In this document: positions 96 through 22,458 of the stretch, one piece after another
Position numbering within the stretch: the first letter of the stretch is position 1
Layout: every line of letters starts with the position of its first letter
Origin: a virus
IMG/VR virus record: IMGVR_UViG_3300034072_001831
Coordinates: 1-25,710 of that record
Direction: 5' to 3' (one strand)
DNA length: 25,710 nt
The notes under the pieces: generated by a model
Databases searched by the model: none
The model's input: the letters and a program-made list of their open reading frames with translations, nothing else
What the model was told of the DNA's origin: nothing
Position numbers and translations under genes: made by a program

Positions 96-965
96 CTACT
101 TAAGTCCACCTTTTGGCAGAATTATTACGTTGTGTTCGTCCGGGATTTCAATTCCTTCTTCAAAACGAGGGAGATCTACCCATGGTATGGGATTCCCATT
201 GCTTCGGAAACGGTTGTGACGAATCATTACGTACTTGTGCATTATTGCCATGGCATGGCCTCGGCTTTCTTTATCGACAAATGAACTTTCTTCCCACCTG
301 TCTGCTTCACGCCTGCCATGAAACGCGAGAAAGTCAGCGAGCTGCACTGCTCTACAATCTTTCTTGCCGACAAAACGAATATCTCCAAGAGATATATTAT
401 TAATCTCTATATTATCCTTTATCCATTTAAAGTACTTAACTAAATTTTGGTTGCTTGTATTTCCAAGCTCAACCACAAACGAGATGGATTGTCCTGAAAA
501 ATCTAAGCTCCCTATTAAATCTTTACTAACAGTCGACAATACGGCTGAAGCAAATGCCAAACCTAGTGGAGATAGATTGGACAAATCTGAATTAATTTTC
601 TTCTGTTCACTAAAAAACTTCTTGCTAACCACACTGTTAACGCCGGAAATAATCCTATGGCCAGCGATCTGAAACAGCCCTTCTACGAAATCGGCTTTTT
701 TCGGGCCATCCCATCCCTTGAAAGCATTGTGCCCATTCTGAAAATCCTTGCCTCGCAACACATCAACGCCATATCTTTGCAGATATGGCTCAACCTCGCG
801 TTCAAACTCCAACCAGTCGTCGGTAAATGACACAAAGCCAGCAATACCCATCGATGGCCCTTCGTGGTTATCGCTGTCGTCAAGGTAGCATTCGAGCACA
901 AAAGTAACTCCGGAGCCCTTCACGTCCCGGACCGAAAACACGCGGCACGCTTCATTGAGCGTCAT
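96..965 (-). CDS. DUF3800 family protein (putative moron)
   Basis: A 289-residue protein with the features of the DUF3800 family: an early YLDDSD motif (about residues 27-32) followed by a GIAGF strand, a central hydrophobic region, and a late CRAVQLADFLAFHGR segment (roughly 200-220) carrying the acidic residue typical of the C-terminal motif. The family is predicted to have an RNase H-like fold with acidic active-site residues and often occurs in phage and defence neighbourhoods; no reaction is firmly established. The ATG at 965 is preceded by a strong GGAGGTG ribosome-binding site 7 nt away. The gene is visibly AT-rich (for example 400-620) compared with the GC-rich tail genes, has its own promoter at 1004-1032, and lies beyond the end of the tail-fibre operon. 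All this suggests a horizontally acquired moron expressed independently of the lytic programme. Family assignment is good; function is unknown. Confidence 0.8.
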   Translation of the reverse strand: MTLNEACRVFSVRDVKGSGVTFVLECYLDDSDNHEGPSMGIAGFVSFTDDWLEFEREVEPYLQRYGVDVLRGKDFQNGHNAFKGWDGPKKADFVEGLFQIAGHRIISGVNSVVSKKFFSEQKKINSDLSNLSPLGLAFASAVLSTVSKDLIGSLDFSGQSISFVVELGNTSNQNLVKYFKWIKDNIEINNISLGDIRFVGKKDCRAVQLADFLAFHGRREADRWEESSFVDKESRGHAMAIMHKYVMIRHNRFRSNGNPIPWVDLPRFEEGIEIPDEHNVIILPKGGLK

Positions 966-1072: not shown

Positions 1073-1939
1073 TCACCCCATGCCAAATGCAAAATCGCTG
1101 TCAGCGATGGTGGTCGGGTCGCGTTCGGAGACTGAGAGGTCTTCAATCCAGCAGCCCTTGACCTTCCAGTTGATCGCGGCGGGCATCGAGGACGAAGGCC
1201 AGAACGAAGAGCCGATGCCGAGTTGCCCGCGCTTACCCGAGAAGTTGGCAGCGTTGTTCGCCCCCACCGCGCCTGTCGTGGAGACAGTAGCAGACGCACC
1301 CTTGATCCGCGCCCCGGTTCCATCGGCATCGCGCCAGTAAAGCACCTGCACGAGATTGCCGAAATGGGTGGCATCTGGCGTCAGGAACAAGTCAGCTACT
1401 GCGTTCAGCGCCGTCTGTCTGCGGAACCACATGCGCCTCGTGGTGCCCGAATTGAACTGCTGGCCAATCATCACGAGGTCAGCTTCGTTGGTCCAATTGC
1501 CGCTGCCCGCGCCATCGCTGCCCGTCCACGTAATGAAAGGACGATCCGCAGTGCTGTTCCACCAGTCAGCCGATGACGGCAGCACGAGGTACATGCAAAG
1601 CGCGAAGTATTGATCACCACCCCAAAGCGCATCGGCAATGCTGGCGGGCAGCAGCAGCGTGTTCTTGTTCGTGGTCAGCCCGGTGAAATCAAATTCGCCG
1701 TCTGCAAACCCGATGCTCGACCCGCTCTGGATCAGCCACGAAGCGTCATTTCCAGCATTGTTGATGTCATCGATGTTCTTGAGCAGGTCGCCGTTGCTTG
1801 GCGCATCTTGGCCTGCCCAAGCAAAGGTATCACCTCCGCGCGCAACGAACAGCGTCCCTTCCGTGATGATCGGATCGAGATAATCGAACGGGAGAGTTTC
1901 ATCGGTGACGGTGCCGGGGAGAATATACTTGAGGGACAT
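1073..1939 (-). CDS. Putative lectin-like phage tail protein
   Basis: A 288-residue protein, last gene of the leftward tail operon. The start at 1939 overlaps the upstream SGNH gene stop by one base (TAATG), which decides it against longer in-frame starts inside that gene. It has no motif I can name with certainty. It is rich in Gly, Ser, Thr, Asn and Trp, and its last 35 residues (WKVKGCWIEDLSVSERD then DSDF) resemble the closing strands of concanavalin/LamG-type domains found at the tips of phage fibres. Its place next to the SGNH tail protein and collar fibre suggests a role in host-surface binding. No signal peptide or membrane segment is visible. A virion location is inferred from context only. 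Confidence 0.65.
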   Translation of the reverse strand: MSLKYILPGTVTDETLPFDYLDPIITEGTLFVARGGDTFAWAGQDAPSNGDLLKNIDDINNAGNDASWLIQSGSSIGFADGEFDFTGLTTNKNTLLLPASIADALWGGDQYFALCMYLVLPSSADWWNSTADRPFITWTGSDGAGSGNWTNEADLVMIGQQFNSGTTRRMWFRRQTALNAVADLFLTPDATHFGNLVQVLYWRDADGTGARIKGASATVSTTGAVGANNAANFSGKRGQLGIGSSFWPSSSMPAAINWKVKGCWIEDLSVSERDPTTIADSDFAFGMG

Positions 1940-3606
1940 TAGAGACCTCCCATGATAAGGTTGTAGTGCGTTTCGGTCAGCAGTCCTGCGCCAGCAGCAG
2001 TGGGGTGGAGATTGGTGCTGTCGATGAGGCCAAGCGTGCCGCCGCCAGAGCGGTAGCCGTATGTGCTTTCCGCACCCCATGACCGGCAGTTGTCGATAAG
2101 CACGCAGCCCTGCTCGCTGGCGATCTGCTCAAGCACGTCGCGATAGTCGGTCATCGGTGTTGAGCGGCCGGCGCTGTTTTCAGGCGGGCACTGCAAGATC
2201 ACATCGGCCAGCGGAAGATAAGTGCGCGTGCGCTGCACCAGCGCGCTCATATTGGTGTAGAAGTTTTCCGGGGTGACGCCGGAACCATCATTCTGATTGG
2301 CCGTGGTCCATGCCTGGTCATTGGTTCCGAGGTTCCACATAACCGCATCGGGAGCGAGCGCTGCCCAGATCGCGCCGAGGATTGTCCAATCGGCACTCAC
2401 CCAATCGAAGGAAGTTGTGCCGCCGTGGCCGCACTTGTCCTGCACCCATCCTGTCGTGGTGCCGCTCTGCACGTCGAAGCCATAGAGCGTGACCGGGCCT
2501 GAGACAGCGGTGATCGTAAGCGTGCGCTGCGCGCCAGAGCCGGGATAGCCTGGCGGGGTGTTGATCTGCGGTCCCGTCCCGGAAAGCACGATGTTGGTCG
2601 CCGAACCGCCATCCCATGAATAGCTGTAGGTTCCGCCAATGCCCGTGATGACACGAATTGCGTTTACCGTTCCCGAGGCTGCACTGCTTACAGTGAGCGT
2701 TACGCTTTCGCCGGTCGGCAGCGTGACCGACGCAAGCGCAGGGCCGTTGCCATTGAGCGCATTGTTGACCGCGCCAGCGGACCACGCGACAGTGAGAGAC
2801 GGGCTTATCCCTGCTTGGAAGCTGCCGGTCTGAGATTTGGCGGCGCTCGTCCATCCAAGGTGCGAAGCGCCGAGGCCGCCCGCGCTGGTCGAAACGCGCA
2901 TCCGGTTCCACAGGTATCGCCCGCCGTAAGTGCCCGCACCATCGATCCAGCTATCGCCCGCCTGCAGCAGGCGCCCGGTCACAGGCGTGATACCGTTGCG
3001 GATTTGCCCGACTTTCGAGCGCAGAGCCTTCATGTTCTCCCGGAACAGGATGGGCGTTTTCTGGTTGCCGTAAGCGGTCAGTCCCTGTGACATCCGCGTG
3101 TCGAGCGTATCCCTAGGCCCCCGCGCGGACGTGACTTCCTCGTTGGACGTTGACCCAGACGATACGACACCTGCCGTACTGATTGACCAGATGCGCCGAC
3201 GCCTGCCCAACGAATCCAGCCCAGTCATCTTGATAAGGTTCGCGCTGTCGCTGTCCGAGGTCAGCGTAGCACCGGCAGGAAGCGGCAGAGTGCCTTCGAC
3301 TGTGCCGAACTTGAACGTATAGGTTTCGTCTGCGTTTCGCGTCAGCGTCAGGCCGTTTGCAATTCCAACCGAAATGCCTAGCTTGGCCAGAAACGTGCCG
3401 TCCTGCCTGAAGCGAGCAGGGCGGCGGCGCTTGCCATCCGCGTCTTCCGCCACAAAGCGGGCGAGATTCGCCGCTTCACTATCTTTGGCGATGCGGAAAC
3501 AGACGTCCGAAACTGGCGCTTGCTTCATGAAGCCGCCTTGCACGATCGGCATGGTCTCGGTTCCGGTGAGCGGGCCTGAGAGTGGAAGTCCTGTGATCTT
3601 TGCCAT
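1939..3606 (-). CDS. Tail protein with SGNH/GDSL hydrolase domain
   Basis: A 555-residue protein. Residues 1-30 (MAKITGLPLSGPLTGTETMP) look like the attachment segment of phage tail-fibre proteins. A hydrolase domain starts near 210: block I is GDSW with nucleophile Ser219, block III is GTND at 427-430, and the last block ends in His534 with Asp529 nearby. A Gly/Ser/Thr-rich, probably beta-sandwich stretch at about 265-385 sits between blocks I and III. SGNH enzymes on phage tails typically remove acetyl or other acyl groups from host surface polysaccharide, so this is probably the receptor-processing enzyme. The Asp-His spacing (four residues between) is wider than the usual DxxH, which may alter or weaken catalysis. 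It overlaps the downstream tail gene by one base and starts 3 nt after the preceding small gene. Confidence 0.82.
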   Translation of the reverse strand: MAKITGLPLSGPLTGTETMPIVQGGFMKQAPVSDVCFRIAKDSEAANLARFVAEDADGKRRRPARFRQDGTFLAKLGISVGIANGLTLTRNADETYTFKFGTVEGTLPLPAGATLTSDSDSANLIKMTGLDSLGRRRRIWSISTAGVVSSGSTSNEEVTSARGPRDTLDTRMSQGLTAYGNQKTPILFRENMKALRSKVGQIRNGITPVTGRLLQAGDSWIDGAGTYGGRYLWNRMRVSTSAGGLGASHLGWTSAAKSQTGSFQAGISPSLTVAWSAGAVNNALNGNGPALASVTLPTGESVTLTVSSAASGTVNAIRVITGIGGTYSYSWDGGSATNIVLSGTGPQINTPPGYPGSGAQRTLTITAVSGPVTLYGFDVQSGTTTGWVQDKCGHGGTTSFDWVSADWTILGAIWAALAPDAVMWNLGTNDQAWTTANQNDGSGVTPENFYTNMSALVQRTRTYLPLADVILQCPPENSAGRSTPMTDYRDVLEQIASEQGCVLIDNCRSWGAESTYGYRSGGGTLGLIDSTNLHPTAAGAGLLTETHYNLIMGGL

Positions 3607-3609
3607 GGA

Positions 3610-3840
3610 TCAGGCCTCCGGCTCTGCAGAGCCGAGAAGACCCAGTGCGAACTTGTTGGCCACGCCCTGCGCAACCTCGTCGACGCGCGCCAGAGTGGCG
3701 GCGCGGTCGTGCTTGCCGTCCTCGCCGATCACGGCATTGACTGAGCGCGAATGGGCTTTGCCGTTCTGCTCAAAGGTCACCGGAACGGTGCTGGTGGCGG
3801 CATCGAGGCGGCCGACGGTGATCTTCATGGCTTCGCTCAT
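3610..3840 (-). CDS. Small conserved tail-region protein, unknown
   Basis: A 76-residue protein between the collar fibre and the SGNH tail protein. I chose the ATG at 3840 over an in-frame TTG at 3846 because AAGGG lies 9 nt upstream. The sequence alternates short hydrophobic and charged strands and ends in an acidic tail (SAEPEA). No known domain, signal peptide or membrane segment is recognised. Its position, tightly packed with fibre genes, suggests a small structural or fibre-assembly role in the place where P2 has its fibre-assembly gene, but there is no sequence evidence for homology to P2 gpG. Confidence 0.65.
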   Translation of the reverse strand: MSEAMKITVGRLDAATSTVPVTFEQNGKAHSRSVNAVIGEDGKHDRAATLARVDEVAQGVANKFALGLLGSAEPEA

Positions 3841-3842
3841 GG

Positions 3843-4892
3843 TCAAACGCCCTTGGTCTGGATGAAGACACGCGCGGTGAAGTTCTCCGCGCTGTAGATT
3901 TCGATGGTGGTGGGTGGCCCCAGTGTGATCGGGCCCACGCCGGTGTTTTCCGAGTTGTTGTCGTCACCGGGCTGCACCTCGACGCCCAGCGTCGGGATGA
4001 TCCACGAGGTGTGCGGGATGGGTACGTTGAACCAGGCCGAAGTGTTGGGCCCGCAATCGACCCAGCCCCACGTTTCCTTGAACCCGTCGGAATACTCGAT
4101 GTACCCGCCGTTCGCGGCGATGTTCGAGGAGACCACGCGGCGGAAGGCGGCGGCGTGGTGGCCATCAACGGTGTCGGCATCGACGCCCGAACCCGCGCCG
4201 TCGACGGTCAACAACTTCGCCAGGACGTCAGCGGCGGTGTAGGCCGTGGCATTGAGCGGTGTGTAACCGAGCCGCGCGGCGATATCGGCGTACCAGGCAC
4301 CGTGCTGCCCATCGAGCAGATCGGCATCAAGCCCGCACCCTGACCCGTCCTGCGTGAGCAGCCATGCCAGCACCACGGCCTTCGCCCGCGCCGGCGTCAA
4401 GGCTTTGAGCGCATCGGCGCCCGCCAGTGCCTCAACCGCGTTGGCCAGCTGGACGAGGCCGCGCATCTCTTCAGTGGCGGGCGGATTGGTGAAGACCGGA
4501 TCACCGAATGAGATAGAGCCCGCGATATCGGCGTTGAAGGCAATATCGAAGCTGATCAGGGCGAAGGCCATGGACGCCTTGCTCTGGATCGGATCGGGCG
4601 AGCTGTAGACCGCGAACAGGGTGCCGTCTTCCAGCCACAGGCCAAGCCCGGTGGCGGTCCAGACATCGGCGCTGGTATCGTACGCGGTCATGTGCGTGAC
4701 GTTGTCCGCCGCCGCGATGCCCGAGACCGCTTCGATCCGCTTGAACTCACCCGGCAGGGCAGTGAGCGTGGGCGCGACATCGAAGGGCGTGTTGGTGAGG
4801 CCGACTTCGGAGATGACCACCGGGTCCGTGCCCGATGCAGCTTGCACCGCGGCAAGCCCCGCGCTGGTGAGCGAGAGGAAAAGGGCACTCAT
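3843..4892 (-). CDS. H: Tail fibre protein, gpH-type collar N-terminus
   Basis: A 349-residue fibre. Residues 1-150 match the N-terminal region of P2 gpH-type fibres (start MSALFLSLTSAGLAAVQAA, then a baseplate-binding beta domain ending EEMRGLVQLAN). Two related repeats at about 182-197 and 231-246 (each with DG, SGxGxDAD, then VDGHH or LDGQHG) are the shaft motif common in trimeric fibres. Residues 262-349 resemble the gp53-like receptor-binding tip (GYIEYSDG, WGWVD). It is shorter than P2 gpH (over 600 residues), with a reduced shaft. The start overlaps the gpI stop by one base (TGATG). It would mediate reversible host recognition at the baseplate. Family assignment is strong at the N-terminus and moderate at the tip. 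Confidence 0.87.
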   Translation of the reverse strand: MSALFLSLTSAGLAAVQAASGTDPVVISEVGLTNTPFDVAPTLTALPGEFKRIEAVSGIAAADNVTHMTAYDTSADVWTATGLGLWLEDGTLFAVYSSPDPIQSKASMAFALISFDIAFNADIAGSISFGDPVFTNPPATEEMRGLVQLANAVEALAGADALKALTPARAKAVVLAWLLTQDGSGCGLDADLLDGQHGAWYADIAARLGYTPLNATAYTAADVLAKLLTVDGAGSGVDADTVDGHHAAAFRRVVSSNIAANGGYIEYSDGFKETWGWVDCGPNTSAWFNVPIPHTSWIIPTLGVEVQPGDDNNSENTGVGPITLGPPTTIEIYSAENFTARVFIQTKGV

Positions 4893-5530
4893 CAGGAAGT
4901 CTCCAGGAGATCGAGCCCATCGGGCGTGTAGATCGGTTCGCCGTCCTCGGTCTGGAGCACGATGGTCCAGTCGCGGCTTTCATCGAGGACCGCCTCGTAG
5001 TCTTGCCGAAGCGTCGTTCCGGCGAGCACGCCTCCAGCCATGTAGAGCCGCGCCTCGGTTTCGAGGGCGAAGACGAAATCGAAGTGGGCGCGCAGGGGCT
5101 TGGCCGCCGCCACGTCGCGAATGATGGCGTTGGCGGTTTCTTCGGTCAAAAAGCTGGCATCGATACCGCCCGGTCCTGCCGGGGCGCGCACTTCGAAGGT
5201 GTGGGGATCGCGGCGCGGCTTGGCCTGCCACCATTCGACAACCGAGAGCAACGGGTGGAAGCGAGCGAGCACTTCCTCGACAGCGGCGCGGGTTCCCTTG
5301 CGCTGGTGGAACGGGATCGCATCGGCAACGGCGGCGCGCTTTTCCGCTTCCGTCCAGTCCGGATCCCAGTGGCTGATTGCCAGCCCCCAGGCGAGAAACG
5401 GCAGCACGTCTGCGGGGCAGGTTGCCGGGTTCCACAGTGTGCCCACGGCGGACAGGTCGATGCCACACCGCATCGCAGCCTCAAGCCCGCGCTCGCCGCT
5501 CGTGGCGTTGGGAGGAAGCAGCGAGGTCAT
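4892..5530 (-). CDS. I: Phage tail protein I (baseplate)
   Basis: A 212-residue homologue of P2 gpI, a baseplate wedge protein that works with gpJ and gpW and helps attach the fibres. The diagnostic N-terminal block is present: LLPPNATxxERGLEAA, NPATCPADVLPFLAWGLAISHWDPDW, then EKRAAVADAIPFHQRKGT (about residues 4-80). The C-terminal half ends in an acidic segment (TEDGEPIYTPDGLDLLE) absent from short gpI proteins, making this one somewhat longer than P2 gpI (about 176). Both ends overlap their neighbours by one base, so translation is probably coupled to gpJ upstream and gpH downstream. Confidence 0.93.
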   Translation of the reverse strand: MTSLLPPNATSGERGLEAAMRCGIDLSAVGTLWNPATCPADVLPFLAWGLAISHWDPDWTEAEKRAAVADAIPFHQRKGTRAAVEEVLARFHPLLSVVEWWQAKPRRDPHTFEVRAPAGPGGIDASFLTEETANAIIRDVAAAKPLRAHFDFVFALETEARLYMAGGVLAGTTLRQDYEAVLDESRDWTIVLQTEDGEPIYTPDGLDLLETS

Positions 5531-6390
5531 CAGATCACCGTGCCGGCGATGGTCACGTCGATATCGGTGACCGAGGCGATCTCGCTGGCGTCGATGTCGA
5601 TGTCGGCACCCGGCGAGAGCAGCTCGACCTTCTGCACGTTGGCGACATGGAGCGCGGCGATCAGGGCCGAGCGGGTCACGTCACGGCCGAGCTTGCGGGC
5701 GGTGGAAAGGTGAGCGTTGAGGCTGTCCAACGCGGTCTGCAGCAACAGTCCCTGATCAGGCCCGGCGAAGACGGTGAGCTGCGCCTCGATCGCGAAAGGG
5801 ACGAGGGTTGCGGGCTGGACGATCACCTCGTCGGTCAGCGGGCGCACCGGCCCGGTGAGTACCTCGGTCACGGCGGCAAGCACGCTTGAGCTGGGCACGC
5901 CGTTGCCGCTGGCTGCCAGCACCGTGACCACCACCTGACCCGGCGAGGGGCTGACCGCCGTCGCATCGGCCACGTCGGCATCGGCACTGCGCGCCCAGTA
6001 GACGTAGGCGAGTTCCGGCCCTGCCACCGAGAAGCTGTGCGGGGCGAGCTGGATGCGCTGCTTGAACGGGCCGTCCTGCTCATCCGGAAGGCGGACAACG
6101 CCGTAGAGCGCGGCGAGGTGATCCAGGCGCGGACCGGTGGCGAAGGCCAGCAGCAGCCCGCGCGCCGCATCGGCGAAAGCCTGCGCCAGGACGGTTTCAT
6201 CGTAACTGTCCGCCTCGAGCAATTTCATCGCCGGATCGCTCTCGACCAGCGCGGTGAATTCGGGGGCCTGTGCCACCAACTGCGCGAGCTTGGCGGCAAG
6301 GCGCGTCTCGAACGTCGGTTGCGCGATCACATCTGGCGCGGGCAGCGCGGACAGATCGATGGATGGGCCGGAGGCGATGGAGCTGACCAT
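5530..6390 (-). CDS. J: Baseplate assembly protein J
   Basis: A 286-residue gpJ homologue, the baseplate wedge protein that forms the outer ring around the spike. Recognisable features are the N-terminal SIDLSALPAPDVI segment, the SDPAMKLLEADSYDETVLAQAFADAARGLLLAFATGPRLDHLAA-type block (residues about 45-90), and a central SPSPGQVVVTVL strand. The ATG at 6390 is chosen because translation upstream of it runs into the divergent control region and loses family similarity. No clear Shine-Dalgarno precedes it. It is the first gene of the leftward tail operon and faces gpV across a 112-bp gap, unlike P2, where V, W, J and I are co-directional. Confidence 0.92.
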   Translation of the reverse strand: MVSSIASGPSIDLSALPAPDVIAQPTFETRLAAKLAQLVAQAPEFTALVESDPAMKLLEADSYDETVLAQAFADAARGLLLAFATGPRLDHLAALYGVVRLPDEQDGPFKQRIQLAPHSFSVAGPELAYVYWARSADADVADATAVSPSPGQVVVTVLAASGNGVPSSSVLAAVTEVLTGPVRPLTDEVIVQPATLVPFAIEAQLTVFAGPDQGLLLQTALDSLNAHLSTARKLGRDVTRSALIAALHVANVQKVELLSPGADIDIDASEIASVTDIDVTIAGTVI

Positions 6391-6433
6391 GACGCTTGTG
6401 TTCGGCAAAGCATGGCCATCCCGCCACCCGCGC

Positions 6434-6460
6434 GCGTTGTGAGGCGCGGCCTTACAACGC
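6434..6460. promoter_or_regulatory. 27-bp dyad, candidate Ogr site for divergent late promoters
   Basis: Arms GCGTTGTGAGGC (6434-6445) and GCCTTACAACGC (6449-6460) are reverse complements except for one base pair, around a central GCG. The core reads TGT-N13-ACA. P2 Ogr and P4 Delta bind dyads described as TGT-N12-ACA centred near -55 of late promoters. The centre at 6447 is 57 nt from the gpJ ATG and 56 nt from the gpV ATG, and an Ogr-type protein is encoded at 18450-18830. Binding by Ogr is inference; the dyad is direct observation. Confidence 0.65.
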
Positions 6461-6502
6461 AGCGGGGTGGCGCGGGGCAACCCCCTAGGCAAGTTTGGCG
6501 TC

Positions 6503-7060
6503 ATGCCACGCACGCCAGAAGACGTTCCGACCGATGCCGACGCCCTGATCCGGGTGGTGGTGGTTGCGTCGGTCGATTTGGCGGAAGGCACCTGCACCGT
6601 AACGCTTGATGATCCATCGGGCGGCGGGGATGATGCCACCTCTCCCCCGGTGCGCTTCCTGCACCCGCGCATGGGGCAAACCCGCGTGTGGAACCCGCCA
6701 TCGGTGGGGGAGCAAGGCCTGCTGTTGTGCCCCGGCGGTGAACTGGGCGCGGGCGTGTTCGTGGGCGGGCTGCATTGCGCTGCCTTCCCCCCGCCAATTG
6801 ATGAAGCCATCCCGCTGGCCCGGTTCAAGGATGGCGCGGTGATCAGCTACGATCCCGAAGCGCACGAACTGCTGCTGCAATTGCCATCCGGCGCCACCAC
6901 AGTGCTGATCAGCGATGGAGGCATGGACATTCACGGCGATGTGACCGTCGCCGGCAAGTTGACCGCCAGCGATGACGTTATCGCCGATGGCAAGAGTCTG
7001 AAGAGCCACAAGCACGGCGGGGTCCAAAGCGGCGCTGCCCAGACGGGCGCGCCGGTATGA
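6503..7060 (+). CDS. V: Baseplate assembly protein V (spike)
   Basis: A 185-residue homologue of P2 gpV, which forms the membrane-piercing spike below the tail tube. An N-terminal OB-fold domain (ALIRVVVVASVDLAEGTCTVTL, then MGQTRVWNPPSVGEQGLLLCPGG) is followed by a short beta-helix (VLISDGGMDIHGDVTVAGKL) and the typical C-terminal SHKHGG motif, where His residues bind the tip metal ion. The ATG at 6503 gives the family N-terminus (MPRTPEDVP); an upstream GTG at 6467 would extend into the control region. No good Shine-Dalgarno is present. The stop overlaps the gpW start (ATGA). Confidence 0.92.
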   Translation: MPRTPEDVPTDADALIRVVVVASVDLAEGTCTVTLDDPSGGGDDATSPPVRFLHPRMGQTRVWNPPSVGEQGLLLCPGGELGAGVFVGGLHCAAFPPPIDEAIPLARFKDGAVISYDPEAHELLLQLPSGATTVLISDGGMDIHGDVTVAGKLTASDDVIADGKSLKSHKHGGVQSGAAQTGAPV

Positions 7061-7425
7061 GCGCCGCAAGCCTTACCGGCATGTCTCGCATCAGCGGCGT
7101 GGCGCTTTCCGGCGACGATCATCTTGCCCAATCCATCGCCGATATCATCACCACGCCGCTGGGCAGCCGGGTGATGCGCCGGGATTACGGTTGCCTGCTG
7201 TTCGATCTGATCGACCGGCCACTTGGCCCTGCCACGGCGCTGCTCTGTTCCATGGCCATCGCCATTGCCCTGGCGCGCTGGGAACCGCGCATCGAACTGA
7301 AGGTGGTGCGGATCGAGGGCGAACTTGCCGCCGGGCAAGCCAGCGTGACGATCGAGGGCATTCGCTCCGGCAGCACAGCCAATTCGCTCACCCGCCTATC
7401 CATCCCCATCGCCAGAAGGACATAA
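7057..7425 (+). CDS. W: Baseplate assembly protein W (GPW/gp25 family)
   Basis: A 122-residue gpW homologue, the small gp25/lysozyme-like wedge protein that joins sheath and baseplate. The family core is clear: the N-terminal GVALSGDDHLAQSIADIITTPLGSRVMRRDYGC block (about residues 10-45), then FDLIDRPLGP and ALARWEPRIEL. The start is within ATGA, overlapping gpV by 4 nt, which indicates translational coupling. Length is close to P2 gpW (about 115). It is followed after 4 nt by the sheath gene, so V, W and sheath form one transcript. Confidence 0.93.
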   Translation: MSAASLTGMSRISGVALSGDDHLAQSIADIITTPLGSRVMRRDYGCLLFDLIDRPLGPATALLCSMAIAIALARWEPRIELKVVRIEGELAAGQASVTIEGIRSGSTANSLTRLSIPIARRT

Positions 7426-7429
7426 ATCC

Positions 7430-8575
7430 ATGCACGGCATCAAAACGAATTTGCTGACCACCGGGGCACGCATCATTGCAGCCGCTGCCACCGCCGTGAT
7501 CGGCCTTGTCTGTACCGCCACCGCCGCTGCCGGTGCACCCACCACCGCGCTCAACGAAGCCTTCCCGCTCGATACTCCGGTGTTGGTGACCGACGTTCGC
7601 AAGGCCATTGGCGAGGCCGGAACGGGCGGCACGCTGCTGCCCGCGCTTGAGGCGATTTACGATCAGTGCAGCCCGATCGTGGTTGTGGTGCGCGTGGCCG
7701 TAGATGCGGAAGACCAGGACGCGGCAACCATCGGCAGCGCGGGCGATTATTCCGGCCTCTACGCCCTGCTCGCCGCTGAAAGCGTCACCGGTTTTCGGCC
7801 CCGCGTGATCGGTGCGCCCGGCCTCGATACGCAGGCCGTCACCACCGCGCTGACCACTATCGCCGGAAAACTGCGCGCCATGGTCTATGCCACTGCCGAG
7901 GGGGACACTGTGGCAGAAGTGGTGACCTATCGCGCGAACTTTTCCGCGCGCGAACTGATGCTGATCTGGCCGAACTGGTCAAATGAGTTTTCGGGGGATG
8001 CCGTGGCCCGCGCGCTGGGCCTGCGCGCCCGGATCGATGAGGAAACGGGCTGGCACAAGACCCTGTCGAACGTGGCCGTTGGCGGCGTGACAGGGGTTTC
8101 GCAAAGCCTGTTCTTCGATATTCAGGACTCGACCACCGATGTCGCGGCACTGAACGATGCGCAAATCACCACGCTGGTGCGCAGCCCGTCTGGCGGGTTC
8201 GTGTACTGGGGAAACCGCACCACCAGCGCTGAACCGCTGTTCGCCTTCGAAAGCGCGGTGCGGACCAGCCAGATCTTGCAGGATGAAATCGCGGCAGGCC
8301 TGATCTGGGCCGCAGACAAGCCGCTCACCGCTTTCCTGGTGAAGGACATTCTGGAGACCATCAACGCGCGCATCCGCACGCTGGTGGTGCAGCAGCGCTT
8401 GATCGGTGGCCGCGCCTGGTTCGATCCCGCGCTGAACGATCAGGCCGATCTGGCTGCAGGCAAACTGGTGATCGATTACGAATTCACCCCCGCCGCCCCG
8501 CTCGAAGGCCTCGAACTCAACCAGCGCATCACCGACAAGTACTACGCGGATCTCTCCGCGCAGCTTGCCGCCTGA
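7430..8575 (+). CDS. FI: Tail sheath protein (P2 gpFI-like)
   Basis: A 381-residue contractile tail sheath protein, close to P2 gpFI (about 396). The first 120 residues carry typical sheath features: an Ala-rich N-terminal strand, the FPLDTPVLVTDVRKAIGEAGTGGTL segment and the VVVRV strand. The C-terminal half has the conserved WGNRT motif and a terminal region FLVKDILETINARIRTLVVQQRLIGG, ending near NQRITDKYY. Sheath subunits stack around the tube and contract to drive injection. The ATG at 7430 lies 4 nt after gpW and has AGAAGGA about 10 nt upstream. Confidence 0.95.
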   Translation: MHGIKTNLLTTGARIIAAAATAVIGLVCTATAAAGAPTTALNEAFPLDTPVLVTDVRKAIGEAGTGGTLLPALEAIYDQCSPIVVVVRVAVDAEDQDAATIGSAGDYSGLYALLAAESVTGFRPRVIGAPGLDTQAVTTALTTIAGKLRAMVYATAEGDTVAEVVTYRANFSARELMLIWPNWSNEFSGDAVARALGLRARIDEETGWHKTLSNVAVGGVTGVSQSLFFDIQDSTTDVAALNDAQITTLVRSPSGGFVYWGNRTTSAEPLFAFESAVRTSQILQDEIAAGLIWAADKPLTAFLVKDILETINARIRTLVVQQRLIGGRAWFDPALNDQADLAAGKLVIDYEFTPAAPLEGLELNQRITDKYYADLSAQLAA

Positions 8576-8610
8576 TCCTGCCCGCACCCTCTTTCTGACG
8601 GAGAACCACG

Positions 8611-9120
8611 ATGGGCTTTCCTTCCAAGCTCAAGGACATGCAGTTTTTCGAGGATGGCACCAGCTACAAGGGTCAGGTCACCGAGGTGACCCTGCCCAAG
8701 CTGACCATGAAGCTCGAAGATTATCGAGCGGGCGGCATGGGCGGCCCGGTGCCGATCGATTTCGGCATGGAGAAACTGGAACTCGAGTTCAAGGCTGGCG
8801 GCCTGGTGCGCGGTCTGTTCCGCAACTTCGGTGCAGTCGCGTTCGATGCCAACCTCAACCGCTTCGCTGGCGCCTTTCAGGACGACAGCACCGGCGCGGT
8901 TGTCTCGTGTGAAGTCGTTACGCGCGGACGCACGTCCGAGATCGACATGGGCACGAGCAAGGTGGGCGATGACACCGAACAGACCTTCAAGACCATCTGC
9001 AGCTACTACAAGCTGACCGTGGACGGCGAAGACTGGATCGAGATCGACTTCATCGCCGGCACCCAGATCGTCTTCGGCGTTGATCGTCGCGCCGCAATCC
9101 GCGCCGCCATCGGCGCCTAG
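8611..9120 (+). CDS. FII: Major tail tube protein (P2 gpFII-like)
   Basis: A 169-residue tail tube protein, similar in length to P2 gpFII (about 172). The N-terminus (MGFPSKLKDMQFFEDGTSYKG), the VTLPKLTMKLEDYRAGGMGGPVPIDFGMEKLE block at residues about 25-60, and the late YYKLTVDGEDWIEIDFI segment are diagnostic. It forms hexameric rings that make the inner tube. An ACGGAGAA ribosome-binding site lies just before the ATG at 8611. It is followed by a 79-nt gap before the chaperone gene, the largest gap in the plus-strand tail operon. Confidence 0.95.
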   Translation: MGFPSKLKDMQFFEDGTSYKGQVTEVTLPKLTMKLEDYRAGGMGGPVPIDFGMEKLELEFKAGGLVRGLFRNFGAVAFDANLNRFAGAFQDDSTGAVVSCEVVTRGRTSEIDMGTSKVGDDTEQTFKTICSYYKLTVDGEDWIEIDFIAGTQIVFGVDRRAAIRAAIGA

Positions 9121-9199
9121 CGAACTTCCGGCCGGCGGTCAGCGGGGGCCGTCGGTCGGGGGAACCTGATACCCCGCGCAATCTGAAGGACCCCGCAAA
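9121..9199. other. GC-rich gap between tube and chaperone genes
   Basis: This 79-nt gap holds self-complementary GC-rich elements, including CCGGCCGG and a CGGGG/CCCCG pair with a 9-nt loop just before the gpE ribosome-binding region (CTGAAGGA, about 9181-9188). A folded leader here could lower gpE translation relative to the abundant tube protein or stabilise the upstream mRNA. No T-tract follows, so I do not call it a terminator. Confidence 0.35.
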
Positions 9200-9547
9200 A
9201 TGTCCGAAGCCGAAGTCACTACCGCCAACCCGCAGACCATCACCGTCAAGCTTGCCTACCCGATCAAGCGCAAGGGTGGCGATGTCACGGATGTAACCCT
9301 GCGCAAACCCAAGGCGGGCGCGATGCGCGGCCTCAAGATCGAGGATCTTTACTCGACCGACGTCAACTCGCTGCTCATCCTGCTGCCGCGCATCACCGAA
9401 CCGACGCTGATCGCCGCTGAGATCGAGGAGCTGGAAAGCGAAGACCTGATCGAGCTGGCGGGCGCAGTGAAGGGTTTTTTTATGAGCGCCGAGATGAAAA
9501 CGGCGATCCAGGAGCACTTCGCCGGGAAGTCGGCTTCGGCAAGCTAG
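9200..9547 (+). CDS. E: Tail assembly chaperone gpE
   Basis: A 115-residue protein of the phage tail assembly chaperone family (gpE/41/14). Family features: the ITVKLAYPIKRKGGDVTDVTLRKPKAGAMRGL strand-helix start (residues about 14-48), then LLPRITEPTL and ELESEDLIELAGAVKGFF. In P2 the short product and a -1 frameshifted product E+E' bind the tape measure while tube assembles around it. The frameshift site sits inside this gene at codons GGT TTT TTT (residues 92-94), 21 codons before its own stop, as in P2. The long form is described separately. Confidence 0.92.
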   Translation: MSEAEVTTANPQTITVKLAYPIKRKGGDVTDVTLRKPKAGAMRGLKIEDLYSTDVNSLLILLPRITEPTLIAAEIEELESEDLIELAGAVKGFFMSAEMKTAIQEHFAGKSASAS

Positions 9548-9696
9548 GCGGGGTCATTGCCGACATTGCGGCGGTGTTTCACTGGCCGCTTTCGGAGCTG
9601 CTGGCGATGGATGTGGACGAACTCAACTACTGGCAAGACCTCGCCATTGCCCGCATCCCGCCGCCGCAATGCGCATGGCTGCAGCGAACCCGGTAA
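9200..9696 (+). CDS. E': Frameshifted tail chaperone gpE+E' (GpE family)
   Basis: A -1 slip at T TTT TTT (9475-9481) takes ribosomes out of gpE after residue 94 and into a second frame open from 9481 to the TAA at 9694-9696, adding 71 residues for a predicted total of 165. The extension ends in a clear GpE-family sequence: IADIAAVFHWPLSELLAMD, then ELNYWQDLAIAR. This segment has no convincing start codon of its own, which supports synthesis only by frameshifting. In P2 the equivalent slippery site is T TTT TTG. The E' stop overlaps the AAAAGGAG ribosome-binding site of the tape measure gene. Confidence 0.9.
9475..9505 (+). promoter_or_regulatory. Programmed -1 frameshift signal
   Basis: The heptamer T TTT TTT (9475-9481) is in the correct frame for a -1 slip in gpE (codons GGT TTT TTT ATG). 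Five nucleotides downstream a short stem can form: CGCCG (9487-9491) with CGGCG (9501-9505) around a 9-nt loop, a typical distance for a stimulatory structure. The heptamer and frames are directly seen; efficiency and stem use are inferred. Confidence 0.88.
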
Positions 9697-9708
9697 AAGG
9701 AGTTCCCG

Positions 9709-11652
9709 GTGTCAGACAACAAGCTCAACCTGCTGGTCAAGTTTACCGGGATCGACAAGCTTTCCGGCGGTATCCGCAACATCATTGGGGCAAGCCGATC
9801 GGGCAGCCAGTCCATCCGCACCCTGCAGGACCGCGCCCGCGATCTTAAGCGCGAGATCAAGCAGGTGGGGCGCGACATGCAGGGAGCGAGCGGCAATGTC
9901 TCGGCCCTGGTCGATCGGCAAAGTGAACTCGAACGCCAACTTGCCGAAACCAATGGCCAGCTGGATCGGCAGAAGGAGCGGCTCGAACGCATCGGCAGGA
10001 TCGAAAGCCGCTTCTCAGGGATAGCCAAGGCTGCAGGCAAGGCCGGGGCCGCTGCCTCGCTCGCCGTAACCACCCCGCTGGTCGCCTTCGGACGCAACGC
10101 CTTCATCGCGGCGATGGATGCCGAGGAACTGCGCAGCGCGTTCAACGTGACGTTCGGCAAAAACGGCGCAATGATGGAGGCATGGGCGGCGAGAACGGGC
10201 GCTGCAGTGGGCCGAACCAACGTCGAGCTGATGCAGGCCGCCAACACCTTCGGCATCTTCTTCAACCAGGCAGATCCCGCAAAGTCGGCAGGCATGAGTC
10301 AGCAGTTCGCCATGCTCGCGCAGGACCTGGCCAGCTTCTACAACACCGATCCCGGCACTGCGCTGGACAAGTTGCGGTCCGGCCTGACCGGGGAAAGCGA
10401 GCCGCTGCGCGATTTCGGCGTGTTCATGACCGATGCCGCCGTGAAGGCGCAAGCGCTCAAGATGGGCCTGAAGCCGGTCGGCAAGGAACTGTCAGAACAA
10501 CAGAAGATCATGGCGCGCGCTGGCCTGATCATGGCGCAGACTACGGCAGCACAGGGTGATCTTGCCCGTACCTCCGGCAGTACCGCCAACCAGCTTCGCG
10601 CTTCGGAATCGGCCTGGAGGAACATGTCGCTGATCGTTGGTCAGCAACTGATCCCTGCGCTGACGCCGCTGATCCAGACCTTCACCGGCATCATCCAGAA
10701 GTTTTCGACTCTATCGCCCGAAACCCGCAAGTGGATCGTTATAGTCGGCGGAGCTGTAGCCGTACTTGGCCCGCTACTTGTCGGCGTGGCGAGTGTTGCC
10801 GGAGCAATCGCAACCTTGGCCCCGCTGGTCGCTGGGGTGGGAGCGGTATTCTCCGTCGCTGCCCTTCCTATAATCGCCATCGGCGCGGCCTTGGCGGGTG
10901 CAGCTTATGTAATATATTCGAATTGGAGCGCGATATCGGGCTTCTTCACAAGCACTTGGGCAGCAGTGACAGGCGCGTTTACGCGCAACTGGACCACCAT
11001 TCGCAACATCGCCCTTGGCGCTTTGGTCATCTTCGCCCCGTTTGTGGCCGCCGTTGTGTGGGTGGGCGCGCAAATTTACAGGAACTGGGACGCTATCAAG
11101 GCTGCAACAATGTCTATGGTTTCAGCCGTTGCTGGGGTTGTGCAACCGTTCATTCAGCCCTTTGTCACCATAATCAGCTATATCAGCGGCCTGCAAAGCA
11201 AGTTCTTTTCGTTTGGCGTCAATATCGTCAGCGGGCTGATCAACGGCATTGTTTCAATGGCTGGCTCTGTTCTCTCTGCCATTGCGAACCTTGCTGGTAG
11301 CGTAGGTGCAAAGTTCGCCGCCTCGCTTGGAATTCACTCACCGTCCCGCCTGTTCATGGCCATGGGCGGGCACATCAGCGATGGTTTGCGCATCGGCTTG
11401 GATCAGAGTGCGAATCGACCGGTCCGCGCGGTTGGCCGAATGGCTGGCGCAGTTGCTGGCGCTGGCGCGATGGCACTTTCCCCGGCTTCAGCGGGAGCGG
11501 CATCGGCGCCAAGCCCCGCCCCCGTCATCAACCACTTCCACATCACCCAGCAGCCCGGCGAGGATGCCAACGCCTTGGCCGAACGTGTCGCGCGCCTGGT
11601 CGAGCAAGCCCAGCGCGGGAAGCGCTTGCGCGGCATGGGGGATGACTTCTAA
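9709..11652 (+). CDS. T: Tail tape measure protein
   Basis: A 647-residue tape measure protein (P2 gpT role, TP901-type core) that sets tail length and is released at injection. Residues about 35-115 are a coiled coil rich in Arg, Gln and Glu (RTLQDRARDLKREIKQ, then RQSELERQLAETNGQLDRQ). A conserved core follows (FGKNGAMMEAWA, GIFFNQADP, DKLRSGLTGESEPLRDFGV). Hydrophobic segments at about 342-403 and 434-458 are probably the membrane-active part. The LGIHSPSRLFMAMGGHISDGLRIGL stretch near 540-565 is typical of tape measures. It is shorter than P2 gpT (about 815), implying a shorter tail. The start is GTG at 9709 with AAAAGGAG about 7 nt upstream. Confidence 0.93.
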   Translation: MSDNKLNLLVKFTGIDKLSGGIRNIIGASRSGSQSIRTLQDRARDLKREIKQVGRDMQGASGNVSALVDRQSELERQLAETNGQLDRQKERLERIGRIESRFSGIAKAAGKAGAAASLAVTTPLVAFGRNAFIAAMDAEELRSAFNVTFGKNGAMMEAWAARTGAAVGRTNVELMQAANTFGIFFNQADPAKSAGMSQQFAMLAQDLASFYNTDPGTALDKLRSGLTGESEPLRDFGVFMTDAAVKAQALKMGLKPVGKELSEQQKIMARAGLIMAQTTAAQGDLARTSGSTANQLRASESAWRNMSLIVGQQLIPALTPLIQTFTGIIQKFSTLSPETRKWIVIVGGAVAVLGPLLVGVASVAGAIATLAPLVAGVGAVFSVAALPIIAIGAALAGAAYVIYSNWSAISGFFTSTWAAVTGAFTRNWTTIRNIALGALVIFAPFVAAVVWVGAQIYRNWDAIKAATMSMVSAVAGVVQPFIQPFVTIISYISGLQSKFFSFGVNIVSGLINGIVSMAGSVLSAIANLAGSVGAKFAASLGIHSPSRLFMAMGGHISDGLRIGLDQSANRPVRAVGRMAGAVAGAGAMALSPASAGAASAPSPAPVINHFHITQQPGEDANALAERVARLVEQAQRGKRLRGMGDDF

Positions 11653-12035
11653 TGCAGCAACAGCTCGCGGCCCTTGGCATGTTCGCCTTCACCACGGACA
11701 GCACTCTGTTCGACAGGCTGACCCGCAGCCGCGAATGGCGGCATGAACGCACCGAGCGGTTCGACGCCATCGCCGCCAGCCAGTTCGTGGGGCCGGGGGC
11801 GGACAAGATCACGCTGACCGGTCGCCTGGTACCAGAAGTTCTGGGCCGCTACGGCGCGCTACAAACGCTGGTGGACATGGCCGATACCGGCGATGCCTAT
11901 CCGTTCATGGATGGACGGGGCCGGGTGCTGGGCCACTTCACCATCGATCGCGTGGACGAAGGTCATGACAACCTGACCGAAGACGGCTTGGCCCGCGTGA
12001 ATGACTTCACCATTGAATTGACCAAGGTGGCGTAA
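11652..12035 (+). CDS. U: Tail protein U (tail terminator)
   Basis: A 127-residue gpU homologue. Evidence is the N-terminal LAALGMFAFTTDSTLFDRLTRSREWRH segment, the ASQFVGPGADKITLTGRLVPEVLGRYGALQTLVDMADTGDAYPFMDGRGRVLGHFTI block, which is highly typical of gpU, and its position between T and D. gpU caps the end of the growing tail. It is shorter than P2 gpU (about 159). The start codon shares one base with the tape measure stop (TAATG), and its own stop shares one base with the gpD start, so T, U and D are translationally coupled. Confidence 0.93.
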   Translation: MQQQLAALGMFAFTTDSTLFDRLTRSREWRHERTERFDAIAASQFVGPGADKITLTGRLVPEVLGRYGALQTLVDMADTGDAYPFMDGRGRVLGHFTIDRVDEGHDNLTEDGLARVNDFTIELTKVA

Positions 12036-13090
12036 TGGACGCCCTCCCCGTCCCGGCGGCCCAAACCGCCCCGGCCCGAACATCATCGGCCTACGTCCAG
12101 CCAAAGGCAGCATGGCGCGTGATGCTGGGCGCAGAAGATCTGACCGCGAAACTCGGCCCCTTGCTCATCTCGCTAAGCCTGTCGGAAAAGGACGGTGAGG
12201 AAGCCGATCAGCTCCAACTCACGATCGACGATTCCAAGGGTAAGGTGGCCATACCGCCCGAAGGCGCAACGTTGCAGGTGTGGCTGGGCTGGGAGCGCGG
12301 CACGGAAGTGACCACCGGCCTGATCTTCAAGGGCAGCTTCAAGGTGGATGAGGCGGGCTATTCCAGCCCGCCCTCGCGCATCACCCTGACAGCGCGCAGT
12401 GCCGATCTGGCGGAAAGCTTCCGCACCCGCCGCAATCGCACCTGGAGCGATGGCACGCTGGGCGATGTGGTGGGCGTGATCGCGCAGGAACACGGACTGC
12501 AGGCGCGCTGCCACCCGGATCTAGCGGCCGAGGTGATCAAGGTGGCGGAACAGGCCGGCAAGAGCGACATGCAGTTCCTGCGCGATCTCGGCCGGCGGTA
12601 CGATGCCAGCGCCGTGGTAAAGGCGGGCGCGCTGATCTTCGCGCCAAAGGGCGCCCCCACCACCGCGGGTGGCAATGCCATGCCAGAAGCGGTGCTGGTG
12701 CGCAGCCGCTGCAGTCAGATCGATTGGAAACGCGCAGCCCGTGACAGGGCTCAAGATGGAGCCGAAGCCCAGTGGCACGATAAGCACGAAGCCAAGCGCA
12801 AGACGCACAGCACCGGCGGCAAGAATCGCAAGCGCCTGAAACGGACTTATGCCAATGAGGCCGATGCCAAAGCCGCTGCCGAGGCCGAAACCAAACGTCT
12901 GAAACGCGCCGCCGCCACGCTCTCGGCCAGCCTCGCCTGGGGCAATCCCCTGCTCTCACCCGGCGTCCGCGTAACCGCCACCGGGTTCAAGTCCGAGATC
13001 GAAGGCACCAAATGGCTGATCGCCAGCGCCGAGCACACGATGGATGCCAGCGGCCTCAAGACCCGGATCGAGATGGAAGTGGCGTCCTAG
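12035..13090 (+). CDS. D: Late control protein D (baseplate hub)
   Basis: A 351-residue gpD homologue, the hub protein under the tube that carries the spike and is related to the T4 gp27 fold. Markers are LSLSEKDGEEADQLQLTIDD (about residues 47-66), LQVWLGWERG, ITLTARSADLAESFRTRRNRTWSDGTLGDVVGVIA, and a C-terminal LSPGVRVTATGFKSEIEGTKWLIASAEHTMDASGLKTRIEME block. A Lys/Arg/Ala-rich region at about 235-290 is a likely insertion loop. It is the last gene of the plus-strand tail operon, and a 150-nt gap with altered composition follows. Confidence 0.94.
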   Translation: MDALPVPAAQTAPARTSSAYVQPKAAWRVMLGAEDLTAKLGPLLISLSLSEKDGEEADQLQLTIDDSKGKVAIPPEGATLQVWLGWERGTEVTTGLIFKGSFKVDEAGYSSPPSRITLTARSADLAESFRTRRNRTWSDGTLGDVVGVIAQEHGLQARCHPDLAAEVIKVAEQAGKSDMQFLRDLGRRYDASAVVKAGALIFAPKGAPTTAGGNAMPEAVLVRSRCSQIDWKRAARDRAQDGAEAQWHDKHEAKRKTHSTGGKNRKRLKRTYANEADAKAAAEAETKRLKRAAATLSASLAWGNPLLSPGVRVTATGFKSEIEGTKWLIASAEHTMDASGLKTRIEMEVAS

Positions 13091-17575: not shown

Positions 17576-17726
17576 TCAAATCCGCATCGAAGCCCTGCGC
17601 TTGGCCTTGTCGCATCACAATGGCGAGAACCTAAAAATCGTCGTCGACGAGGACCGCGTTCTCGCCACTGCCGCCAAGTTTGCTGATTTTATCTGCAACA
17701 AGGCAAGCGCAGAGGTTCAGTCATGA
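17565..17726 (+). CDS. Small unknown protein of early operon
   Basis: A 53-residue protein from ATG 17565, overlapping the preceding gene by 11 nt. The sequence reads as a plausible helix-strand-helix (FDQIRIEALRLALSHH, ENLKIVVDEDRVLATAAKFADFI). No family is recognised. It runs 10 nt into the end of a convergent minus-strand gene. It is a modest coding call based on context and codon pattern. Confidence 0.55.
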   Translation: MTFDQIRIEALRLALSHHNGENLKIVVDEDRVLATAAKFADFICNKASAEVQS

Positions 17727-17896
17727 CCGGCTTTGCGCTTGCCCTTCGCTGCCAACAGGCACTCGGCGTAAAGATCGAGGTACGCCGTGCGGTTCATCAA
17801 TGTCTTTTCGGTTTCCCAGTAAAGTATCTGGGCCGCCAGATCGAACGCTACACGCGCAACGCTGCCGCTGTCGGACGCACTTACTTCGTCTGCCAT
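17717..17896 (-). CDS. Small 59-residue protein opposing the early operon
   Basis: A minus-strand reading frame of 59 residues with AAAGGAA 6 nt before its ATG at 17896. The product has a natural composition: an acidic Ser-rich start (MADEVSASDSGSVARVAFDL), an amphipathic helix (AAQILYWETEKTLMNRTAYLDLYAECLLA) and a basic end (KGKRKAGHD). A plus-strand frame covering the same bases (17723-17986) would give an unnaturally Arg/Cys-rich product, so I prefer the minus gene. It resembles small helical phage proteins encoded opposite early operons, but no family is identified. It converges with the 53-residue gene and diverges from the CII-like gene. Confidence 0.55.
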   Translation of the reverse strand: MADEVSASDSGSVARVAFDLAAQILYWETEKTLMNRTAYLDLYAECLLAAKGKRKAGHD

Positions 17897-17941
17897 TTTT
17901 ATTCCTTTCGGTCAGAGTGTGGATTCCTGACTGTAACCGAA

Positions 17942-17968
17942 GCCGGAAGCGTTGCCAGCGCTTCCGGC
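17942..17968. repeat. Perfect 10-bp inverted repeat before the CII-like gene
   Basis: Arms GCCGGAAGCG (17942-17951) and CGCTTCCGGC (17959-17968) around TTGCCAG. The right arm ends directly at the GGAGGG ribosome-binding site of the gene at 17983. No T-tract follows on either strand, so it looks like an operator or a leader hairpin rather than an intrinsic terminator. It lies in the 86-nt divergent gap between the minus-strand 59-residue gene and the CII-like gene. Confidence 0.6.
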
Positions 17969-17982
17969 GGAGGGCTGTGGAA

Positions 17983-18444
17983 ATGACCAAGCGGCGCGAA
18001 CCACTGACCTACGAACGCACGCTGGCCACCGTCGCCGCGAAGATCGGATGGGACAATTGCGCGGCCATTTGCGGCGTGAGCCGGCGTGCTATCTCAAACT
18101 GGTCCGAACCCGATACCCAGGCGGGAATTCGCATGATCGATGCCGAGCGGCTCGATCGCGCGTACTTGGACGAAGGCGGCGATCATGCCCCGTTCCACCA
18201 GCTGTTCGGCCTGCGCATCGAACTGGCCGAGCAGGCCCCAGTCCGCCCCGATCTGATGCAGGTCGTGGCCGAGGTGGCCAAGGAAAGCGGCGAGGCAGTT
18301 TCGGCTCTGATCGATGCAGCCGGTTCGGTCGATCCCGCCAAGCGGCGCCGTGCGCGAGAGGAAGGCGAGGAAGCCCTCGCCGCCCTCACCCGCAGCCTCG
18401 CCGCGCTGGATGCGCAAGAGCGCGGCCAGATGGAGGAGCGCTGA
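17983..18444 (+). CDS. CII-like HTH phage regulator
   Basis: A 153-residue protein with an N-terminal HTH (KIGWDNCAAICGVSRRAISNWSEPD, about residues 20-44), a helical middle and an acidic, Ala-rich C-terminal helix (RREEGEEALAALTRSLAALDAQERGQ-like region). The arrangement resembles regulatory proteins of P2-like and CII families, which bind near early promoters after repressor loss. The GGAGGG site 8 nt before ATG 17983 supports the start. It lies just upstream of the Ogr-type gene, so it may control the step between early and late expression. Exact family is uncertain. Confidence 0.65.
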   Translation: MTKRREPLTYERTLATVAAKIGWDNCAAICGVSRRAISNWSEPDTQAGIRMIDAERLDRAYLDEGGDHAPFHQLFGLRIELAEQAPVRPDLMQVVAEVAKESGEAVSALIDAAGSVDPAKRRRAREEGEEALAALTRSLAALDAQERGQMEER

Positions 18445-18449
18445 TCGCC

Positions 18450-18830
18450 ATGGCCGAACAAGCCGCCTCTTCCGATACAGCGTTTGACCGGAACGTGCTT
18501 GCCCATCGGCAGGACCGCGCCGGTAACCTCGATTGCCCGCATTGCGGCTGCCAGGGCCGCGTTCGATCGAGCGAGGCGGTCACGCCGCAGCACCGCAAGA
18601 TCTACTACTTCTGCAGCAACGTGTTCTGTGGCCACAGCTGGCTTGCCACCGTGTCTTACGAATACGGGCTTTCGCCCAGCGCCATCCCCAATCCCAAGGT
18701 CACCCTGCCGCTGCGCCCCATGCCGCGCCAGCAGGTGATGGAGCTGCTGCGCGAACGCGATGCCGATCAGCCCGAACTGTTTGACGTCACGACGCCGGAC
18801 CAGATCGCTCCTGATACCGGCTGCGGCTGA
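18450..18830 (+). CDS. ogr: Ogr/Delta-family late activator (zinc finger)
   Basis: A 126-residue protein with the Ogr zinc-binding pattern: Cys29, Cys32, Cys55 and Cys60, exactly CX2CX22CX4C as in P2 Ogr and P4 Delta. Around it are LDCPHCG, YYFCSNVFCGHSW and LSPSAIPNP, typical Ogr sequences. It activates late tail and head promoters by binding dyads near -55 and contacting RNA polymerase alpha. It is longer than P2 Ogr (72), with an extra N-terminal segment and a C-terminal helix plus acidic tail. A candidate target is the dyad at 6434-6460. It starts 6 nt after the CII-like gene stop. Confidence 0.9.
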   Translation: MAEQAASSDTAFDRNVLAHRQDRAGNLDCPHCGCQGRVRSSEAVTPQHRKIYYFCSNVFCGHSWLATVSYEYGLSPSAIPNPKVTLPLRPMPRQQVMELLRERDADQPELFDVTTPDQIAPDTGCG

Positions 18831-22154: not shown

Positions 22155-22416
22155 ATCAGTGACCCCGGCCCAGCGCTTCCGCGCCGCGCGCGAGAGCTTC
22201 GAGCTGGCGATGCAGATGGGCTGCCTGCCCGCCCAGGCGCGCGAAACCCGTCGCCGCGAAGAAGCCGATCGCCAGTGGCAGGCATCTGGAGAACGCCTGC
22301 GCGCCGCGATGAACCGGCCCCTGCGCCGCAGCTCTGCTGCCGAAACCGCCCCGGACACAATTGTGGAACCGCCTCTCACAACGCCAGAGGCCCCGCGCCG
22401 CTGGTGGCTCGACTAA
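22144..22416 (+). CDS. Small Arg-rich protein, unknown
   Basis: A 90-residue protein starting 11 nt inside the end of the nuclease-like gene with GGAGAG upstream. It is Arg/Ala/Glu-rich and mostly helical (AQRFRAARESFELAMQM, ETRRREEADRQWQASGERLRAAM), ending in Pro-rich sequence and WWLD. No family is recognised. It may be a partner of the nuclease or of the fusion protein that follows after 42 nt. Confidence 0.6.
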   Translation: MPRKSVTPAQRFRAARESFELAMQMGCLPAQARETRRREEADRQWQASGERLRAAMNRPLRRSSAAETAPDTIVEPPLTTPEAPRRWWLD

Positions 22417-22458
22417 CCCGGTCCCTTGAGACCCCGCCTCACGGAAGGACTCGCACCC

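Follow-up and report, generated by a model that had tools for sequence, protein, structure and literature searches.

How might two tail operons that run away from each other be switched on together from the short interval between them? This question was raised by IMG/VR virus record IMGVR_UViG_3300034072_001831, of which positions 1 to 25,710 were analyzed; this whole stretch of 25,710 nucleotides is called the window below. It is a lone viral contig of 25.7 kb that covers part of a P2-like phage of sphingomonad bacteria but none of its head genes. The gene for the baseplate wedge protein gpJ (5530–6390, minus strand; PF04865; PHROG 6, 4226) heads its leftward operon. The gene for the baseplate spike gpV (6503–7060, plus strand; PF04717, PF18946; PHROG 9992, 11) is the first gene of the rightward operon V-W-FI-FII-E-T-U-D. 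A palindromic dyad lies midway between the two start codons. An earlier note on this DNA had proposed that the dyad is a bidirectional promoter activated by the late activator Ogr, and the sequence evidence supported this proposal. The dyad at 6422–6472 is very probably an Ogr-activated bidirectional promoter that would give rise to two leaderless mRNAs, V-W-FI...D and J-I-H-fibre.

The Dyad Between gpJ and gpV

The 27-bp dyad described in the earlier note was located at 6434–6460. Its sequence is GCGTTGTGAGGCGCGGCCTTACAACGC, with 11 of 13 pairs complementary. The TGT (6438–6440) and ACA (6454–6456) half-sites lie 13 bp apart, a TGT/ACA dyad of the kind found at P2-type Ogr-dependent late promoters. 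The core of the dyad, GTTGT-N13-ACAAC (6436–6458, no strand), is centered at 6447 and is conserved in relatives. Measured from the center, the J ATG (6390, minus strand) is 57 bp away and the V ATG (6503) 56 bp away, which confirms the distances given previously.

The core is contained in an extended imperfect dyad of 51 bp (6422–6472, no strand) with 19 of 25 pairs complementary. This extended dyad is the top palindrome of the window, and the 27-bp form ranks second among palindromes with 13-bp arms. When the 112-bp J/V interval was shuffled in 5000 trials, 11 of 13 pairs were reached in 0.66% of the trials and 19 of 25 pairs in none. The outer arms of the extended dyad, CGCCACCC and GGGTGGCG, are found about 31–39 bp ahead of each ATG, near the position expected of a −35 element in each direction. 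The long palindrome may thus combine one activator site with a mirrored pair of −35-region elements, one on each side of it. The shared context of the two start codons was also found: both carry GCGTCATG, a perfect 8-bp inverted repeat at 6388–6395 and 6498–6505.

The activator itself is encoded in the window, as in a P2-type system of Ogr-dependent late promoters. The protein at 18450–18830 (plus strand) is a C4 zinc-finger late activator of the Ogr/Delta type, with a match to PF04606 of 46.8 bits and an exact CX2CX22CX4C motif, in agreement with the earlier assignment. The top-ranking short palindrome of the window is GCCGGAAGCGTTGCCAGCGCTTCCGGC at 17942–17968, with 12 of 13 pairs; it falls inside the frame preceding ogr (17680–18444, weak CII-like match).

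Conservation and Recurrence of the Dyad

The divergent J/V layout was found in 12 non-redundant phages or prophages, with 112–115 bp between the ATGs; the hosts, where known, are Novosphingobium and Sphingomonas. This layout and related sheath genes occur together in prophages of Novosphingobium silvae FGD1 (L138) and Sphingomonas sp. IC081 (L139). There were 12 non-redundant sites with an ATG 55–59 bp from the center on both sides, and the gene pair was J and V in 12/12. In the alignment of close relatives, GCGTTGT and ACAA were nearly invariant and the interior of the spacer was variable; the outer arms CCACCC and GGGTGGC were mostly retained.

The dyad was also sought before other late operons, as the earlier note had suggested. 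In relatives with head genes, the same dyad recurs in the P/O intergenic region. In phages with non-divergent J and V, it stands ahead of each gene separately. The dyad therefore precedes late structural operons, J/V in the window and P/O, J and V in relatives, as is characteristic of P2-type late promoters. Its absence from such operons, one of the refuting outcomes named in the earlier note, was thus not observed in the relatives. The dyad pattern was present in 15 of 17 records, and the reversed-pattern control was present in 1 of 17. Ogr was detected in the window and in 13 of the 17 records.

The spacer between the half-sites varied among phages. It was N14 at both P/O and J/V in G005, G006 and G008–G011, N13 at both P/O and V in G004, and N13 at all sites of G014–G016; lengths were mixed in G017. 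Judged from these sites, spacer length appears to be largely a property of the phage. The half-sites varied as well. Six phages without GTTGT (L222, L009, L226, L233, L250 and L258) have other perfect dyads about 55–60 bp before J, V or P, with the half-sites TGTAGAA, GGTAAAA, TGTCGTCA, GTGTAAA and CTGTGGAAA. L222 has TGTAGAA...TTCTACA at J, V and P alike, and L009 has GGTAAAA...TTTTACC at V and P. Although the window J and the J of L217 are 80% identical, the latter is in tandem behind a GGTAAA-type site; the dyad was accordingly considered to go with the phage rather than the gene. Such behavior would be expected for a phage-encoded activator.

L034 (3774–3796) and L033 (1057–1079) have an extra dyad in the leftward operon, with the fibre gene on one side and a 185-aa gene on the other; the ATG of the 185-aa gene is 77 bp away. 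This extra dyad may be an additional late promoter within the J operon.

A dyad at position 28361 of G005 was set aside: it lies within the R coding sequence and is probably a chance occurrence. Inversion of the J-H block via two palindromic Ogr sites was also considered. This event predicts a relic dyad after gene S and was not supported: a search up to 450 bp from the S match, allowing up to 2 mismatches, gave no dyad in L037, L038, L040, L042, L043, L125 and L139, all of them divergent. In the tandem phage L048/L132, the J site is 31 bp after the S match.

Evidence for the Predicted Leaderless Transcripts

The distance from dyad center to ATG was investigated with open frames of at least 90 codons at 208 non-redundant sites, thinned by k-mer similarity only. 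A total of 78 of the 349 outgoing ATGs lay at 55–59 bp from the center, compared with 9.7 expected by chance if ATG positions are uniform; these counts are not strictly independent phylogenetically, and stronger replication is provided by the three gene classes (P, J and V) and by the different types of dyad. All 78 ATGs belong to three genes (V, 41; J, 23; P, 14). None of the ATGs of O, the scaffold gene that lies across the P site from P, fell in this band, and most were at 86–131 bp. In an independent count of 98 sites, no GTG start was found at 55–60 bp from the dyad.

The earlier note had found no clear Shine-Dalgarno (SD) sequence at either gene, and the duplex energies with the anti-SD bore this out. 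The values were −2.4 kcal/mol for V and −0.1 kcal/mol for J in the window, both weak, as in leaderless mRNAs. Medians for V, J and P starts were −1.7 to −3.4 kcal/mol, with 13–21% of the starts at −5 kcal/mol or below, compared with 32% for shuffled sequences. In contrast, O starts had an SD at this threshold in 14/14 cases. The same threshold was reached by 83% of FII and 92% of T starts, and most FI, FII, T and U starts have an SD.

The bases before the start codons were consistent with promoter elements. A pyrimidine stood at −1 in 91% of V/J/P starts, compared with 53% of controls. The hexamer xAxxxT occurred at about −12 to −7 in 56% of them, compared with 14% of controls. In the window, the −10-like hexamer of the V promoter is AAGTTT (6491–6496, plus strand; −12 to −7 from the ATG), which fits the xAxxxT signature of the 78 aligned starts. 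The hexamer of the J promoter, AACACA (6397–6402, minus strand; −12 to −7 from the ATG), is weak; related J starts are A-rich at −12 to −10, and one subgroup of them has GATAGC. From the distance peak, the missing SD, the pyrimidine at −1 and the −10-like hexamer, +1 was therefore placed at the A of the ATG, as expected of a leaderless AUG, although the J −10 of the window is weak. The predicted transcription starts are the A of the V ATG (6503, plus strand) and the A of the J ATG (6390, minus strand), on the grounds of spacing, the C/T initiator at −1, the absence of an SD and the annotated start of P2 pV. The prediction of starts at or near both ATGs was thus strengthened.

Upstream alternative starts, GTG at 6467 for V and TTG at 6408 for J, were disfavored because the spacing between ATG and dyad differs among relatives by non-multiples of three.

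Comparison with Known Systems

A shared Ogr site has precedents. The P2 record NC_001895 has one annotated activator site (3057–3087) for pO and pP, whose center is 55 and 56 bp from the two starts. As proposed for the window, one activator site lies between divergent late operons; its center is 55–56 bp from each annotated start, and that of the window is 56–57 bp from both ATGs, the predicted starts. The difference is that the P2 site serves P and O, both leadered (leaders of about 23 nt for pP and about 40 nt for pO), while the site of the window lies between J and V, both predicted to be leaderless. In Stenotrophomonas phage Smp131, PP' and PO' occupy the same bases (PMC3931495). The gene blocks JIHG and V-FI...D of Smp131 are as in the window, but about 4 kb separates its PJ' from its PV', which are distinct sites (PMC3931495). 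In the window, one putative site would serve both.

P2 pV is a precedent for the predicted V start. In the annotation, pV transcription begins with the first base of V, and the site center is 55.5 bp upstream. However, P2 pV acts in one direction only, and P2 J lies downstream of V and W in the same operon. In a study of mycobacterial leaderless genes, Christie and Calendar 1985, on P2 late promoters, is cited for leaderless P2 transcripts (PMC4633059).

The consensus spacing of P2 is N12, compared with N13 in the window and N13 or N14 in relatives. The N12 spacing is specific to P2 and is not shared by the Ralstonia phages RSY1 and RSA1. These phages are reported to have an Ogr homologue and TGTTGT-N13-ACAACA before four late regions, with no sigma-70 promoter (PMC5694545). 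Their GTTGT-N13-ACAAC form is that of the window; the passages covered note no leaderless geometry (PMC5694545).

Each element is thus known singly: the shared Ogr site in P2 pO/pP and Smp131, the leaderless transcript in P2, and GTTGT-N13-ACAAC in RSA1 and RSY1. In the part of the literature covered, no description was found of a single site serving J and V, of leaderless transcripts in both directions, or of a fixed V/J/P geometry with O as an SD-led exception; this is a weak negative. The combination of a shared site with two leaderless operons, and its tight conservation, seem to be new.

Proposed Mechanism and Alternatives

The sequence itself shows the dyad with its conservation and recurrence, the fixed distance from it to the ATGs of V, J and P, the lack of an SD at these starts, and the −10/initiator signature. 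From them we infer that Ogr is the binding protein, that one bound site serves both directions, and that transcripts start at the ATGs. The dyad at 6422–6472 would be a single shared Ogr binding site midway between mirror-image core promoters, and bound Ogr would recruit RNA polymerase both ways. The −10-like element 7–12 bp before each start codon would set transcription to start at, or 1–2 bases from, the A of the ATG. Both operons, V-W-FI...D on the right and J-I-H-fibre on the left, would then be switched on together as leaderless mRNAs.

Several observations weigh against this mechanism. No Ogr was detected in 4 of the 17 records, of which at least some are short fragments. The head genes lie outside the contig, so recurrence at other late operons is seen in relatives only. 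The spacer differs from the N12 of P2, and some V genes elsewhere sit farther from a dyad. The J −10 of the window is poor, with no T at −7, and the sigma-70 consensus scan of the J/V interval found no promoter.

The same shared Ogr site could instead produce leaders of about 5–25 nt, or translation could start downstream of the assumed ATGs. The leaders of P2 pP and pO provide a model for the former, and the distance from Ogr to the start could shift by a few bases. This alternative was considered unlikely, as the 55–59 bp spacing occurs in three unrelated genes together with C/T at −1, the −10-like element and no SD, and O, which is leadered by this geometry, consistently has an SD. It is less probable still that the dyad is an operator of another regulator, a repressor or host factor, separating two ordinary promoters. 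GC-rich near-perfect palindromes are typical of helix-turn-helix operators, and the binding of Ogr to the dyad is a prediction; however, copies of the dyad are found at late operons in a fixed geometry that matches that of P2 Ogr sites, and the interval yielded no sigma-70-type promoter.

Almost no weight was given to an RNA hairpin or terminator between J and V, despite the strong GC-rich inverted repeat. The genes diverge, so neither transcript should cross the dyad. No T-run, Rfam match or tRNA was found, and the loop of the dyad varies while GTTGT/ACAA and the distance stay fixed. The Ogr-activated bidirectional promoter is also in line with the precedents of P2 pO/pP and Smp131 PP'/PO'.

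Other Features of the Window

The rest of the rightward tail operon, W, FI (sheath), FII, E, T, U and D, was assigned by PHROGs at 7057–13090 (plus strand). The rest of the leftward operon, assigned in the same way, occupies 1939–5530 (minus strand), with I at 4892–5530, H at 3843–4892 and the fibre gene at 1939–3606.

A second related dyad with one core mismatch is present at 22361–22381 (plus strand), upstream of a GapR-FtsK_gamma gene, and is conserved in L114. The gene (22426–23058) fuses an FtsK_gamma domain with a GapR-like DNA-binding domain. Its ATG at 22459 is 88 bp from the center of the second dyad and is preceded by GGAAGGA. Possibly, the second dyad is a further late promoter, and the gene would then be a leadered, SD-led late gene like O.

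A DUF5131 protein (19559–20728; PF07505, 307 bits) is encoded downstream of ogr, and partial relatives of it stand directly after gene D in L003 and L045. A DUF3800 protein (PF12686) is encoded leftward at the left end of the window (96–965).

Implications for P2-like Phages

The geometry may extend beyond the window. It is proposed, tentatively, that V, J and P have been selected for leaderless translation as a general part of late control in many P2-like phages. The Ogr site would be locked 56–57 bp from the AUGs, and its sequence would diverge with the activator phage by phage. In the sphingomonad phages, two such promoters would have become joined at a single bidirectional site. If true, translation of baseplate and terminase genes would depend on leaderless (70S) initiation, unlike that of the SD-led scaffold (O) and sheath/tube genes. 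The leaderless late transcript, a classic oddity of P2, appears to be a rule conserved across three late genes, and one palindromic activator site could be reused to fire two leaderless operons.

Ogr sites with differing sequence and constant geometry would form a natural series for studying how a zinc-finger activator of this small size recognizes DNA and places RNA polymerase. Leaderless transcripts are reported to number 119 in Zymomonas mobilis compared with five or fewer in Escherichia coli (PMC7566282). The J/V site would offer a testable case of leaderless initiation by phage late genes in Alphaproteobacteria, where leaderless transcripts are not rare (PMC7566282).
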